Of a stretch of DNA of 32,640 nt, positions 27,393 through 32,640 are shown one piece after another. Positions within the stretch are counted from its first letter, which is position 1, and each line of letters begins with the position of its first letter. The DNA lies in contig JAQXSY010000108.1 in NCBI GenBank assembly GCA_029219205.1, positions 1 to 32,640 on the forward strand, given 5' to 3'. Source of the DNA: Bacillota bacterium (GTDB lineage: Bacteria > Bacillota > Clostridia > Oscillospirales > CAG-272). The notes under the pieces were generated by a model. The model saw only the letters and a list, made by a program, of their open reading frames with translations, made no database searches and was not told the DNA's origin. The position numbers and the translations under genes are program-made.

Positions 27393-27477
27393 AAAGCCAA
27401 AAAATTAAATTGTAACCGATAAGCAACACAGAGTAAACAAAATTGCCGGCAGTTCTTGTTTATTGTGTTTTCGCTAA

Positions 27478-27512
27478 AGATAAGGCTACCGCTATTTGCG
27501 GTAGCCTTATCT
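27478..27512. terminator. Strong hairpin, probable transcription end or RNA stabiliser
   Basis: Perfect 15-bp stem AGATAAGGCTACCGC-tattt-GCGGTAGCCTTATCT; no downstream T-run. Confidence 0.5.
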
Positions 27513-27644
27513 GCTATTTGTACTGAATTCTTTGCTCATTTCTCATATCCGTTTCCATTAAGCGATGAAGTTCCGGGAGATTTTCAAAACATTTCCAAAC
27601 GTTAAAACTTTATTTTTGTACAGCAAGAAAAAACTGATTTTCTA

Positions 27645-27673
27645 TTGACTAACGAACGATAGGTAGTTATAAT
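27645..27673 (+). promoter_or_regulatory. tetR promoter with operator-like dyad in the spacer
   Basis: TTGACT (27645-27650), 17 nt, TATAAT (27668-27673); spacer contains CGAACGATAGGTAG (27653-27666). Confidence 0.85.
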
Positions 27674-27722
27674 AGAATCATGTTAGCGAGACGTTTCGGT
27701 TATTGAAAAGGAGTAAATATCT

Positions 27723-28358
27723 ATGGATCGTGGAAACACAAAGCAGGAAATTCTGGAAGCATCACTTGATTTGTTCTCCGTACAGGGATTTGAAGCCACC
27801 TCAATCTCCCAGATTGCGAACGCCGTGGGTATTCGCAAAGCATCTCTTTACAGCCATTTTGAAAACAAGCAGGCGATTCTTGACGCGCTTGTAAAGGATG
27901 TTTTGGAGCAGTATGCGGAGCATTCCATCTTTGCAAAGGCGGATTGGGATAAATATGATGATAAAGAGGATAAACCGGCATTAACTCCCGATTCGACAGT
28001 CCAAATGATCCTGTGTCAGATCCGCTACATCCTCCATGAACCACATATCAGCAGGGCACGAAAAATGTTGGTGATGGAGCAGTTCCAAAACCCGGAACTG
28101 GCAAGGCTGCAGACAAAGCAGAATTATAGTGATGTAATGCAGTACTTCACAGGGCTCGTAAAATACCTGATTCGGAATGGTATCTTGACCGAGGATAATC
28201 CCGAGATCATGGCAGCTCAGCTTTGTCTTCCCATTTCCACATGGATCAACCTTTGTGACAGAGAACCGGATCGGGAATCGGAAGTCATGGAGATGGTGGA
28301 TAAGCATATTCGGCAATTTTTCAGGGCATATCAGAAGAGAGAATCTTTCAGTAATTAA
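27723..28358 (+). CDS. TetR/AcrR family transcriptional regulator
   Basis: ILEASLDLFSVQGFEATSISQIANAVGIRKASLYSHFENKQAILDALVKD HTH. Confidence 0.96.
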   Translation: MDRGNTKQEILEASLDLFSVQGFEATSISQIANAVGIRKASLYSHFENKQAILDALVKDVLEQYAEHSIFAKADWDKYDDKEDKPALTPDSTVQMILCQIRYILHEPHISRARKMLVMEQFQNPELARLQTKQNYSDVMQYFTGLVKYLIRNGILTEDNPEIMAAQLCLPISTWINLCDREPDRESEVMEMVDKHIRQFFRAYQKRESFSN

Positions 28359-28456
28359 GCCGTCCGGCTTGATGATAAAAAAATATTTTTCATGTAGGAT
28401 TCTGTTTGAAGAAGCATCAGAAAGCAAAGGAGACTCGAAATACAGTCTCACACAAA

Positions 28457-28490
28457 CCTCCCAAAAGGTTTCGATTTTTCTTTTGGGAGG
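28457..28490 (+). terminator. Hairpin between tetR and GNAT gene (terminator/attenuator-like)
   Basis: CCTCCCAAAAG ... CTTTTGGGAGG perfect 11-bp stem; T-run lies in the loop, not after the stem. Confidence 0.4.
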
Positions 28491-28550
28491 ATGTCCCGAT
28501 AAACAGGAAGAACAAGAATGACACAGGAAGAAGAATTTACGGAGGTATCT

Positions 28551-29342
28551 ATGGACAGATTTGCGGATGAAAGAGACCTGAAAATACTGGAGAACGACAG
28601 ATACACATTTTTTGTGCTTCGACATATTATTGGAGAAACGTGTAAACTGCTCTTGACCGACCATGAAAGGCTGATCATTTGCTATACAGGCCATCCGTTT
28701 CCGGTATGGATATGGACTCCGGACGATGCATCAGAAGCGGAAATGGAGAAGGCGTATCAGCTTGCATCGGAACATTCTTTGCTAAGCGGTGAATATCGTT
28801 TTAACCTCAAGTATGATCTGGCAAAGTTTTTTATTGAACGGGCTGCCGCAGATGGCAAAAGTCTTTCCGTCTGTATGAATATGTTCGCATATGATTGCCG
28901 TAATCCGGTCAAGCCGGACAAGACGGCGGATGGTTCCATTCACCGGTGCAGCAGCGAAGATCTGGATGAATTGGTGGATTTGATTGATCTGTTCCAAAAA
29001 GAAACCGGGATAGACCAAAACGATCGTGACGGCTATCGCAGGGATGCGGAGGCATTTATCCGCGCAGGAAATACGTTCTTTTGGAAGAACGAACAGGGGG
29101 TGAATGTCGCAAGCTGCAAATATACGGCTGGCGGAACAATGGCATCGATCAATCTTGTGTTTACGCGGCCCGAGTTTCGCCGAAAGCATTATGCTCAAAA
29201 TCTTGTTTATCAGGTTACAAAGCTTGCAATGGATGCCGGATATGTTCCCATGCTTTATACAGACGCGGATTATGCCGCGTCAAACAACTGTTACGAGAAA
29301 ATCGGATATGTTCTCCGAGGCAAATTGTGTATAATAGGATAA
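28551..29342 (+). CDS. GNAT family N-acetyltransferase
   Basis: ASINLVFTRPEFRRKHYAQNLVYQVTKLAMDAGYVPMLYTDADYAASNNCYEKIGYVLRG; start at ATG 28551 preferred (GGAGGT 5 nt upstream) over the 28518 ORF start. Confidence 0.88.
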   Translation: MDRFADERDLKILENDRYTFFVLRHIIGETCKLLLTDHERLIICYTGHPFPVWIWTPDDASEAEMEKAYQLASEHSLLSGEYRFNLKYDLAKFFIERAAADGKSLSVCMNMFAYDCRNPVKPDKTADGSIHRCSSEDLDELVDLIDLFQKETGIDQNDRDGYRRDAEAFIRAGNTFFWKNEQGVNVASCKYTAGGTMASINLVFTRPEFRRKHYAQNLVYQVTKLAMDAGYVPMLYTDADYAASNNCYEKIGYVLRGKLCIIG

Positions 29343-29365
29343 ACCGAAATTTTGGAGGCGGCAAG

Positions 29366-29788
29366 GTGACTTTAGTAACAATCCTTTTTGAAGCAATATT
29401 GTTTTGTTGGTTTTTTGGATGTATCTGCACATACAAATTTAAAAATTATATTTTGGTTGAGGGTGTTGGGATAAAGAGCGCAGAGTTTATAATGCTGTGT
29501 CTGTTCGTCATCGGAGTTATTTCCTTTTGGATTCAGCCTTTTTGGGGAAAGTGGTTTCTTCTGGGAGTATTGGTTTTCTGGTTTGCGGTTCAATTTTTTT
29601 GCCATTGGTATTATACTTTTTTCGGCGCTTCGGAAAAGAAGTTAAAAGGATATAATGACTGCTTTAAAAATACAGTACATATTATTCCCGCAAGCGAAAC
29701 AAAACTGATTCCGGATTTATATCATATTATTTTACATTTGCTCATCTTGACGAATATTGGTTTAATCATATACAATATTGCAATATAA
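29366..29788 (+). CDS. Small multi-pass membrane protein of unknown function
   Basis: GTG start 29366 with GGAGG at 29354; VTLVTILFEAILFCWFFGC ... LLILTNIGLIIYNIAI hydrophobic segments. Confidence 0.65.
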   Translation: MTLVTILFEAILFCWFFGCICTYKFKNYILVEGVGIKSAEFIMLCLFVIGVISFWIQPFWGKWFLLGVLVFWFAVQFFCHWYYTFFGASEKKLKGYNDCFKNTVHIIPASETKLIPDLYHIILHLLILTNIGLIIYNIAI

Positions 29789-29903
29789 CCTGTCTGATTA
29801 TGAGCAGGCTCCCATAAGCAAATCCGGCGCATCATAGCTCCGCTTTAAGGAACGTACAGTCTCCGGTTTGCAGAACAGGATAGCTTCCCGTTTACAAAAC
29901 GCC

Positions 29904-29940
29904 GCGGCTGTGTCCGCTCGGTCACGGCCGCTTCATTTTA
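29904..29940 (+). terminator. Probable terminator
   Basis: GCGGCTGTG ... CACGGCCGC stem followed by TTCATTTT. Confidence 0.5.
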
Positions 29941-29949
29941 AGCAGCACA

Positions 29950-29967
29950 CTACCGAACGATAGGTAG
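29950..29967. promoter_or_regulatory. Second copy of TetR-type operator
   Basis: CTACCGAACGATAGGTAG dyad shares the 14-mer CGAACGATAGGTAG with the tetR promoter. Confidence 0.75.
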
Positions 29968-29993
29968 CATACGATAAAAAGAAAGGATTACAT

Positions 29994-30215
29994 ATGATCA
30001 TACTATTTGTAATTGGCATCATTGTGCTTACAGCAAAAATTGTTCATTTCGCATTCAAAGCCGCTTGGTCAATCACAAAAGGAGTTCTGTTTGCGATTGG
30101 AATTCCCGCCCTGCTGACCGTGCTGTTTGTTGCCGGGCTGGCAGTTATTGCGGTCCCCCTTTTGTTCCTTGCGTTGTTGGCAGCATTTCTCCGTCCGGTT
30201 TTGAGATGGTTTTAA
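29994..30215 (+). CDS. Small hydrophobic membrane protein (73 aa)
   Basis: AAAGGA SD before ATG; almost entirely hydrophobic with two likely TM segments. Confidence 0.7.
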   Translation: MIILFVIGIIVLTAKIVHFAFKAAWSITKGVLFAIGIPALLTVLFVAGLAVIAVPLLFLALLAAFLRPVLRWF

Positions 30216-30219
30216 GGAT

Positions 30220-30531
30220 ATGAACAACGGAAAAAAGCGCACATGGATCGAAGAGGAAAACAAAATCGCGTCGTTCTATGTTGTTAACGGCGGAAAAATT
30301 AAAATGAAAGCAGAAAAACTGTTTTGTGACTTTATTTCCGTCCAACAAGCTCAGGATACCGAATTATTTGAAGGAAGATTGATTTGAAATGAAAAGAACA
30401 ATCTTGCCGCGCTCACGTACCGTTTCCCGGGATATGCGGAATTGGGCACCGGCATGAAGATCCGAAACGCCGGACAAATGAACTGGTACATTGAGCGGCA
30501 GACGCATTTGAAGAAAAAGTGCGGCATCTGA
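30220..30531 (+). pseudogene. Small ORF interrupted by an in-frame TGA (55 codons + TGA + 47 codons)
   Basis: Not in the ORF track. MNNGKKRTWIEEENKIASFYVVNGGKIKMKAEKLFCDFISVQQAQDTELFEGRLI-(TGA)-NEKNNLAALTYRFPGYAELGTGMKIRNAGQMNWYIERQTHLKKKCGI-stop; the frame stays open and soluble-protein-like after the TGA. Confidence 0.5.
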
Positions 30532-30614
30532 AAAACTGACACATATGCATACAAAAAATGCCTATATGCCGCCGGGATTCTTTTGTATAATATAGGATAT
30601 AAGCTGCTGAAGCA

Positions 30615-30890
30615 ATGGAAATTCAAAACCGAACACCAAGGGTACGCACTTTACGGAAAGCGGCGCAGCAGTATCAGAAAGCTTGCGTCCGCTGCATTTG
30701 GATGCCCATCGTGTCAACAGTGATCGCATCAGTAAACATGGCGAGTCTGGGCGTAGATCGAAAAGGCTATGTCAGCAGCCTCCCGAATGCTTTTACCGGT
30801 ATCGTTCTGATTCTTGCTTATCTGATCTTCCGCTGCCGGGCAGAACTGCGGGAACAGAATCGCTTTCTGATTTCTGACGCTAAGAAATAA
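30615..30890 (+). CDS. Small hypothetical protein with TM segment(s)
   Basis: 91 aa; hydrophobic FTGIVLILAYLIFRC; no clear SD before 30615, true start uncertain. Confidence 0.45.
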   Translation: MEIQNRTPRVRTLRKAAQQYQKACVRCIWMPIVSTVIASVNMASLGVDRKGYVSSLPNAFTGIVLILAYLIFRCRAELREQNRFLISDAKK

Positions 30891-30926
30891 GACGAAACAA
30901 TCGAGAACAGGGATGGTAAAAATCAA

Positions 30927-31499
30927 GTGAAAAGAAATGCAAAGTCAGTCCATAAATGGAATACAGCCGACACCATAACATCTGCGCGGATGGCATTTTC
31001 TCTTCTCATGCTTTTCATCCCTCTGCGTTCGGTCGGATTCCTTGTGGTTTACACCTTCTCCGGCCTGACCGACGTACTGGACGGCTGGCTGTCGAGAAAG
31101 ACAGGAACTGCCAGCGATTTCGGGGCAAGACTGGACAGCATTGCGGACCTTCTGTTCTACGGCGTTTTGCTGTTCAGGTTGTTACCGGTTTTATGGCAGA
31201 CTCTGCCGGCGGCGATCTGGTATGCCGTTGCGGTCATTTTGATTGTGCGGTTGGCATCCTATGCTACGGTTGCGGTCAAGCATCATCGTTTTGCTTCTTT
31301 GCACACTTGGCTGAATAAGCTGACCGGCGCTGGCGTCTTCATGCTTCCCTATGTCTTTGCGATGTCAACAGGCATAGTATACAGTTGGGCAATATGCGTT
31401 CTTGCTTTTGCAGCAGCTTTGGAGGAACTTTTGATCCATCTTTGCCGGAAGGATTACTGTACTGACAGAAAATCCGTCTTTCAGAGGAAAGAAGCCTGA
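30927..31499 (+). CDS. CDP-alcohol phosphatidyltransferase family protein
   Basis: GTG start; LTDVLDGWLSRKTGTASDFGARLDSIADLLFY matches DGxxAR-x8-G-x3-D-x3-D (Ser for Ala); multi-TM. Confidence 0.92.
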   Translation: MKRNAKSVHKWNTADTITSARMAFSLLMLFIPLRSVGFLVVYTFSGLTDVLDGWLSRKTGTASDFGARLDSIADLLFYGVLLFRLLPVLWQTLPAAIWYAVAVILIVRLASYATVAVKHHRFASLHTWLNKLTGAGVFMLPYVFAMSTGIVYSWAICVLAFAAALEELLIHLCRKDYCTDRKSVFQRKEA

Positions 31500-31608
31500 G
31501 AGAAGGGGTTGACATATGGTACAAAAAAATCAAAGAAGGAATGATTTCGTACAAGAAAACCTGTGTAAATTACCCGAATGTACAGATTGGCTATGGAGCG
31601 AATTGTAA

Positions 31609-32094
31609 ATGAAGAAAAAGATACTAAATCCTTTCGCCATGCTGTGTTTTGGTCTGCTGATTGGACTCATTTCAAGATTATTGGATATTTACACAACAAA
31701 TTTGGGAGAAGTTTTTTCCCAAGCGGCAATCTGGATTTTATTTGGCACTATGATTTCTATTTATAGCAAGACCGCAAAGAAAGCGATGCTGAATGTTTTG
31801 ACATTCTGCTTGGGAATGCTGTTTACATACTACTTAACCGCAGCCTTAAGTCACGGAGTGTATTCAATCGAATACATAATCGGTTGGACCGTGTTAGCTC
31901 TGTGTTCGCCTGTTATGGCTTTTTTTGCATGGTATGCAAAGGAAAGCGGATTATTCCCGAGAATTGTGAGCGTGGGAATAATTTCGGTTTCCGTTCTGTC
32001 ATCAATTATTTTATTCGACAGATTGCGAATCTATGATATCGTGATTAACGGAGCATTGTTTTATTTTTTGTTTTTCAAAAAAGTTGACAGATAG
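31609..32094 (+). CDS. Multi-pass membrane protein of unknown function
   Basis: 161 aa, four to five hydrophobic segments (FAMLCFGLLIGLISRLL, AMLNVLTFCLGMLFTYYL, IIGWTVLALCSPVMAFFAW). Confidence 0.65.
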   Translation: MKKKILNPFAMLCFGLLIGLISRLLDIYTTNLGEVFSQAAIWILFGTMISIYSKTAKKAMLNVLTFCLGMLFTYYLTAALSHGVYSIEYIIGWTVLALCSPVMAFFAWYAKESGLFPRIVSVGIISVSVLSSIILFDRLRIYDIVINGALFYFLFFKKVDR

Positions 32095-32196
32095 ACCTAA
32101 ATATTGTCCGAAACCATCTAATTGAACAGTTCTCTGCGCAGACGTTTGTTGTTGGCAGGAATTCGGAACTATAAATTGCACAAACGGAGCACAAAT

Positions 32197-32640
32197 ATGG
32201 AGAAAATCACACTTCGAAGATTTCAAAAAGGGGATGAATTTGCTGTTTCGGATGTGATCTGCACAACGCTTGCCATCAGCAACATAACGGACTATCTCCA
32301 TGAGTTTATCGAGGAAAATATAAAAAGTCACTCCCCGGAGATGATTGCCGCATTGGCCGCGGAAGCCCATTTTTATGTGGCAATGGATGGAAAAGCGATC
32401 ATCGGATGCGGTGGAATTACAGGCTATTGTGGCAGTACCGAGGAAAGCTATCTGACCTCGATCTTTGTTCTGCCGGACTATCAGGGAAAAGGCGTGGGCA
32501 GGAAGATCGTTGAAACCCTGGAAGCAGATGAATACTTCAGCCGGGCCTGGCGCACCGAAGTCGGTTCCTCCCTGACCGCAGTTCATTTCTATGAAAAAAT
32601 GGGCTACAAATACAAAAACGGGGTTGCTGAGCCAGACAAA
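32197..32640 (+). CDS. GNAT family N-acetyltransferase (truncated by window end)
   Basis: Open frame to the window end, absent from the ORF track: MEKITLRRFQKGDEFAVSDVICTTLAISNI ... SIFVLPDYQGKGVGRKIVETLEADEYF ... AVHFYEKMGYKYKNG. Confidence 0.9.
   Translation, partial: MEKITLRRFQKGDEFAVSDVICTTLAISNITDYLHEFIEENIKSHSPEMIAALAAEAHFYVAMDGKAIIGCGGITGYCGSTEESYLTSIFVLPDYQGKGVGRKIVETLEADEYFSRAWRTEVGSSLTAVHFYEKMGYKYKNGVAEPDK

Follow-up and report, generated by a model that had tools for sequence, protein, structure and literature searches.

The question raised by this locus is what a second copy of a TetR-type operator does when it lies more than 2 kb behind the gene of the regulator, within a window that comprises the whole analysed stretch of 32,640 nucleotides from a Bacillota bacterium of the Oscillospirales. 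The sequence-only reading had placed the same motif at two promoters and proposed that the TetR protein represses both itself and a downstream unit containing a small membrane protein and a CDP-alcohol phosphatidyltransferase, as a membrane-modification regulon. The features on which the argument turns are collected in Table 1.

Table 1. Features of the tetR locus in the window (positions counted from the first nucleotide of the window)
Feature	Position	Strand	Remarks
tetR promoter TTGACT-17-TATAAT, operator within spacer (class A)	27645..27673	+	11/12 consensus
Operator 1, CTAACGAACGATAGGTAG	27649..27666	+	motif scan, conserved in relatives
tetR, TetR/AcrR-family regulator, 211 aa	27723..28358	+	TetR_N and AefR-like C-terminal domain
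GNAT acetyltransferase	28518..29342	+	start may be 28551 by comparison with a relative
140-aa membrane-protein ORF, GTG start	29366..29788	+	no Pfam family
Terminator-like hairpin GCGGCTGTGTCCGCTCGGTCACGGCCGC	29904..29931	+	conserved
U-tract, weak, interrupted, TTCATTTT	29932..29939	+	3' of hairpin
Operator 2, CTACCGAACGATAGGTAG (class B)	29950..29967	+	18 nt after stem, without -35/-10
73-aa membrane protein	29994..30215	+	first gene past operator 2
55-aa ORF	30220..30387	+	relative of a ~50-aa protein

Both copies of the motif are present with the sequences and positions given earlier, as the two matches to CTAMCGAACGATAGGTAG that the window contains (27649-27666 and 29950-29967). A window scan allowing up to three mismatches returned 2 matches, while 100 dinucleotide shuffles gave a mean of 0.02 and never two. 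The rest of the draft genome (2.30 Mb, 191 contigs) contains neither CTAMCGAACGATAGGTAG nor a further exact copy of the 13-base core, and the flanks of near copies at one or two mismatches in the same genome are mostly unrelated. Two draws of 391 and 395 genomes from the same class and family, chosen independently of the presence of the TetR, yielded sites at up to one mismatch in six genomes besides the window's own. Half of these six carry this TetR (contigs of L073, L083 and L092), and the three remaining sites are one intergenic site in an AT-rich genome, one within a coding frame and one before a different TetR gene. The 31 genomes with a close TetR relative contain 1-4 sites each, mostly two (pattern scan, up to two mismatches), against 0-2 matches each for a reversed control pattern in the same genomes. 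The motif accompanies this TetR and is almost absent from genomes without it, and as far as sequence comparison goes the pairing of regulator and operator is well supported. Genome-wide, then, the motif is not spread over unrelated positions but almost confined to TetR genomes, and the small, site-specific regulon that had been predicted finds strong support in footprinting. The spacer operators of distant TetR relatives differ in sequence, which makes the motif a property of this TetR subfamily. A related sequence, CTACCGTTCGGTAG, occupies the spacer of a promoter elsewhere in the window's own genome (L013, G000; contig C21, position 1496, minus strand, TTGACAGCCTACCGTTCGGTAGGTATAAT), on a contig which also has a TetR paralogue, 28% identical, so that cross-talk is possible.

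The regulator itself belongs to the TetR/AcrR family, with a TetR_N helix-turn-helix (PF00440, E 9.1e-15) and an AefR-like C-terminal domain (PF14246) reaching 28.5 bits in Pfam, above the cut-off of 22. Among the NCBIfam equivalogs (TetR, AcrR, RefZ, BetI, FadR, ScbR and others) 20 models match, all far under their cut-offs. Scanning species genomes across the Clostridia gave about 40 close relatives with about 68-86% identity, carried by Oscillospiraceae, Lachnospiraceae, Clostridiaceae and other Clostridia; they are rare in the window's own family, and the distribution of tetR is therefore patchy. Oscillibacter valericigenes An890 and Fournierella massiliensis An912 are among the cultured carriers. 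Plasmids and phages provided distant TetR relatives only, the best listed having 38% identity, and no carrier element was identified among them.

When all sites were aligned in register they were sorted into two classes, A (35 sites) and B (23 sites). Operator 1 belongs to class A, and the promoter around it is the top promoter-like site of its region. Its placement in the -35/-10 spacer of tetR was borne out by the same layout at all 35 class A sites, where TTGA stands right before the operator in 100% and TATAAT follows one base after it with 91-97% per position; the best sigma-70 score over these sites is 10.91, compared with 6.58 when the flanks are shuffled. Class A consists of tetR promoters plus some promoters elsewhere, which precede a GNAT gene 76% identical to that of the window (L136), an alpha/beta hydrolase (L140) and a GyrI-like protein gene (L141). 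In a minor set of tetR promoters this spacer contains the operator in inverted orientation (L033, L072, L078, L079, L091, L093, L098 and L100), and the distance from operator 1 to the tetR start ranges from about 60 to 439 bp across loci. Nearly all TetR relatives carry the motif in the promoter of their own gene, and footprinting strongly supports the earlier proposal that the TetR represses itself. Autoregulation is thus a well supported prediction, in which TetR bound between -35 and -10 would block initiation. Two observations concern the surroundings of such promoters. A perfect 15-bp hairpin (27478-27512) lies between a LysM-protein gene and the tetR promoter of the window and includes CTACCGC/GCGGTAG, similar to the operator arms. 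Another genome (G212) has near-identical operator-promoter stretches in L139 (C30) and L138 (C15), only one of which is followed by tetR, apparently a duplicated promoter fragment.

The second copy has a different setting. It does lie upstream of the 73-aa membrane protein gene, as had been noticed, its last base being 26 nt before the ATG at 29994; the 18-bp dyad described for it stands as to sequence and place, although its symmetry is imperfect (CTACC-8-GGTAG, with 5-bp arms and 14/18 positions symmetric). Where loci have enough downstream sequence, 20 out of 36 present a second copy at ~0.7-2.2 kb downstream and 16 have none. The copy is on the same strand, 697-2119 bp from the tetR start in the relatives and 2227 bp in the window. 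Its presence on the tree is patchy, with 12 changes against a shuffled mean of 13.7 (L097, a frame-shifted copy, is a long-branch artefact in it). Within class B, which includes operator 2 of the window, nearly all operator positions are conserved at 91-100%, and neither TTGA nor TATAAT is found at the 23 sites. Their sigma-70 score over the site, 6.65, shows no excess over shuffled flanks (6.57), nor does the best -10 behind the operator (3.91 vs 3.81), while a promoter on the opposite strand shows a slight excess (7.04 vs 6.21). The claim of two promoters consequently holds for the first site and is not supported for the second, which is linked to a hairpin instead; a two-promoter TetR regulon finds no backing in consensus -35/-10 elements above shuffles at the 23 sites, although a non-consensus promoter may exist there.

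Before every class B site there is a same-strand hairpin of the type GCGGCTGTGTCCGCYNGGRCATGGCCGC, then TTCATTTT or a variant of it. Stem end and operator are separated by 18 or 19 nt at 23/23 class B sites, a class that was itself defined partly by the hairpin; no well-matched site in a TetR locus lacked both promoter and hairpin, and each one outside a TTGA..TATAAT promoter has the hairpin 18 or 19 nt upstream on the same strand. This spacing is kept over a linker that is near random (pairwise identity of 0.35 for the eight bases before the operator, 0.92 for the operator). In 23 genomes there are 11 occurrences of the strict hairpin pattern, no genome having more than one and each lying at a class B site, so that a common terminator family, which had been considered as an origin of the hairpin, was rejected on account of the pattern's uniqueness to site 2. 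The element has the build of an intrinsic terminator, with a GC-rich hairpin, a weak U-tract and a d score above 0 in 16/22 cases: the stems are strong, about -20 kcal/mol, and the U-tract score has a median of 3.3, whereas most of the strongest terminators of these loci reach about 4.2-5.8. In 96% of cells the pairs of the stem are preserved, mainly through conservation and wobble switches, and base-pair covariation in the hairpin was not above shuffles. The conserved U-G and G-U pairs would fit selection on the tetR-sense RNA rather than on the other strand. An Rfam search of 27400-32640 returned nothing at the gathering score and only two sub-threshold, chance-like matches. Relatives of the element also occur in other settings: in the window's own genome (L150, G000:C54:940-980) one stands behind an alpha/beta hydrolase without an operator and is directly followed by the second conserved block described below, as if the operator had been lost, and in L084:2013 a hairpin-operator element lies 4 kb upstream of tetR, beside the usual downstream one, before a decayed 73-aa membrane-protein gene.

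We propose, at roughly even odds, that one TetR autorepressor serves two control points, a block of its promoter at site 1 and a roadblock that tightens a leaky terminator at site 2. TetR on operator 1 would close the tetR promoter. Transcripts that start there would pass tetR, the GNAT gene (which most likely is part of the tetR transcript) and the 140-aa membrane ORF before reaching the hairpin at 29904-29931, where the weak U-tract would allow part of the polymerases to read through. Release typically takes place 7-9 nt past the stem, which would leave the RNA end about 10 nt before operator 2, and a polymerase pausing at the U-tract would have its leading edge at that operator. Since the footprint of RNA polymerase extends roughly 15-20 bp downstream from the active site, a bound TetR would touch the polymerase paused at the U-tract and, as a roadblock, would turn the leaky terminator into a tight one. 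Removal of TetR by a ligand would let the promoter fire and the terminator leak, and read-through would lead to expression of the 73-aa membrane protein and the 55-aa ORF. Binding, roadblocking, read-through and the ligand are what we infer; the TetR-motif pairing, the two classes, the coupling and spacing of hairpin and operator, the absence of hexamers at site 2 and the weakness of the U-tract are read directly from the aligned sequences. That 16 loci lack site 2 is a point against the roadblock, many DNA-binding proteins are poor roadblocks (PMC10310618), and the fixed spacing between hairpin and operator may come partly from common descent of a compact block. Taken as a general type, namely a protein-gated terminator in which the repressor encoded by the first gene closes the promoter, tightens a weak terminator and spreads with its regulator gene while the cargo is exchanged, the proposal is one that we hold tentatively, at somewhat under an even chance.

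The main rival of the roadblock is a weak promoter without consensus hexamers. Operator 2 would then act in the usual way on the downstream small gene, by covering a promoter that is weak or depends on an activator, and the hairpin would be the terminator of the upstream operon, packed against it by descent. This TetR does work at promoters, judging by site 1, and in most loci an ATG follows operator 2 by 23-26 nt with a Shine-Dalgarno-like purine stretch, so that a start point right behind the operator would give a short leader; start codons in most class B loci fall 23-39 nt past it, and about 17/23 loci have an ATG or a gene remnant 23-45 nt past the operator. However, at the 23 sites no -35/-10 signal rises over that of shuffled flanks, these genomes contain no other copy of the strict hairpin sequence, and hairpin and operator have been retained in about five loci with no gene start right behind them (L065, L073, L083, L088 and L092). 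We consider this explanation possible but doubtful. Both functions could also be combined, as for YtgR at the Chlamydia trpRBA operon, with a weak internal promoter being repressed and read-through from upstream being stopped; the anatomy fits both and a precedent exists, yet promoter hexamers are equally absent here, and we judge this combination unlikely. Looping between the two sites, by which an auxiliary operator 2 would strengthen repression at site 1, could be imagined for the same motif placed 0.8-2.2 kb apart in cis, but it is the distance to site 1 that varies widely and the distance to the hairpin that does not, and TetR proteins are, to our knowledge, normally dimers without a looping interface, which makes it very improbable. 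Equally improbable is that the hairpin-operator element marks a recombination or cassette boundary, which would account for the shuffled cargo and the strongly different gene content on either side of it among loci, since this 18-mer also occupies the spacer of the tetR promoter as a textbook operator and its presence follows the TetR gene, so that the regulator explains the motif without a recombinase.

The genes around the sites differ from locus to locus. They include GNAT acetyltransferases, CAAX-protease-like proteins, GyrI/Cass2-like ligand-binding proteins, MerR-GyrI regulators, ABC transporters, FMN reductases, isochorismatase-like and alpha/beta hydrolases, small lipoproteins and the 73-aa membrane protein. 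Relatives of the last occupy the same place in L067, L069, L071 and L094 and are cut short or frame-shifted in L086 and L137, and the ~50-aa protein related to the 55-aa ORF stands directly behind class B sites in L070, L082, L084 and L099. Genes adjacent to the sites thus vary by genome and mostly have small detoxification, transport or resistance-type functions, and the regulon looks like a xenobiotic or stress-response set. No counterpart of the CDP-alcohol phosphatidyltransferase (30927-31499) was found elsewhere in the set. In the window this gene sits behind a second conserved non-coding block at ~30525-30607 (ACACATAYNCATACAAAAASYGCCTATA...TTGTANAATATAGG), aligned (A3) as ACACATAYNCATACAAAAA..GCCTATA..TTGTANAATATAGG..GTAAGC, which is promoter-like, with a CCTATAT/ATATAGG dyad; most loci of the set have this block too, frequently right after operator 2, and at the threshold of the search the window's own genome has one copy. 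The gene is best treated as a separate transcription unit. The membrane-modification interpretation was abandoned because no cargo is conserved: it is exchanged among loci, and within the set the CDP-alcohol phosphatidyltransferase was seen only here, behind another promoter-like block. Two further elements were noticed between the genes of the window. A perfect 11-bp inverted repeat with a T-rich loop (CCTCCCAAAAG / CTTTTGGGAGG, 28457-28490) separates tetR from the GNAT gene as a possible attenuator or terminator, and a small lipoprotein gene (MKRT..., ..PGYAELGTGMKIRNAGQMNWYIE) survives as a remnant at 30389-30533, with intact relatives behind class B sites in L142 and L082.

Bacterial precedents exist for repressor roadblocks and for the blocking of read-through at an intergenic operator (PMC6504234; PMC10310618), and TetR autoregulation is known as well. 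Autoregulated TetR/AcrR repressors with spacer operators share the own-promoter operator between -35 and -10 and the small regulon, and the present locus differs from them by its extra, promoter-less and terminator-linked second operator. For LacI, PurR, GalR, ArsR, CcpA and CodY, whose roadblocks are reviewed in PMC10310618, a repressor bound downstream likewise stops elongating RNA polymerase; here, in contrast, a specific terminator-like hairpin goes with the operator, 18-19 nt before it. The nearest natural case is YtgR at trpRBA of Chlamydia trachomatis (PMC6504234), where an operator also separates the regulator gene from genes further along the operon, YtgR binding ends transcripts from the upstream promoter and its release gives read-through; the likeness to our locus is one of geometry. 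The blocker there is not the operon's own regulator (TrpR), whereas here the first gene itself encodes the repressor; the Chlamydia operon has an internal promoter and none is visible at site 2; and no dedicated hairpin at fixed spacing is described for it in the passages used. Yeast Reb1, as cited in PMC6504234, is comparable in that a site-specific DNA-binding protein stops read-through by roadblock termination; the system is eukaryotic, and the comparison is no more than an analogy, a shared release mechanism not being implied. Within the open-access literature, the exact operator motif was not found, and neither was a description of a terminator hairpin at fixed distance before a repressor operator, an absence which, with that coverage, proves little.

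What is known of repressor roadblocks comes mostly from single cases and engineered circuits. The present locus adds a hairpin and an operator kept at 18-19 nt across many Clostridia, a combination open to testing with a single short fragment and a single protein, and it cautions that not every conserved operator copy is a promoter operator. If the proposed mechanism is true, it would provide a ready-made part for gene circuits, and in these bacteria a single regulator would control in two steps an operon with frequently exchanged cargo.
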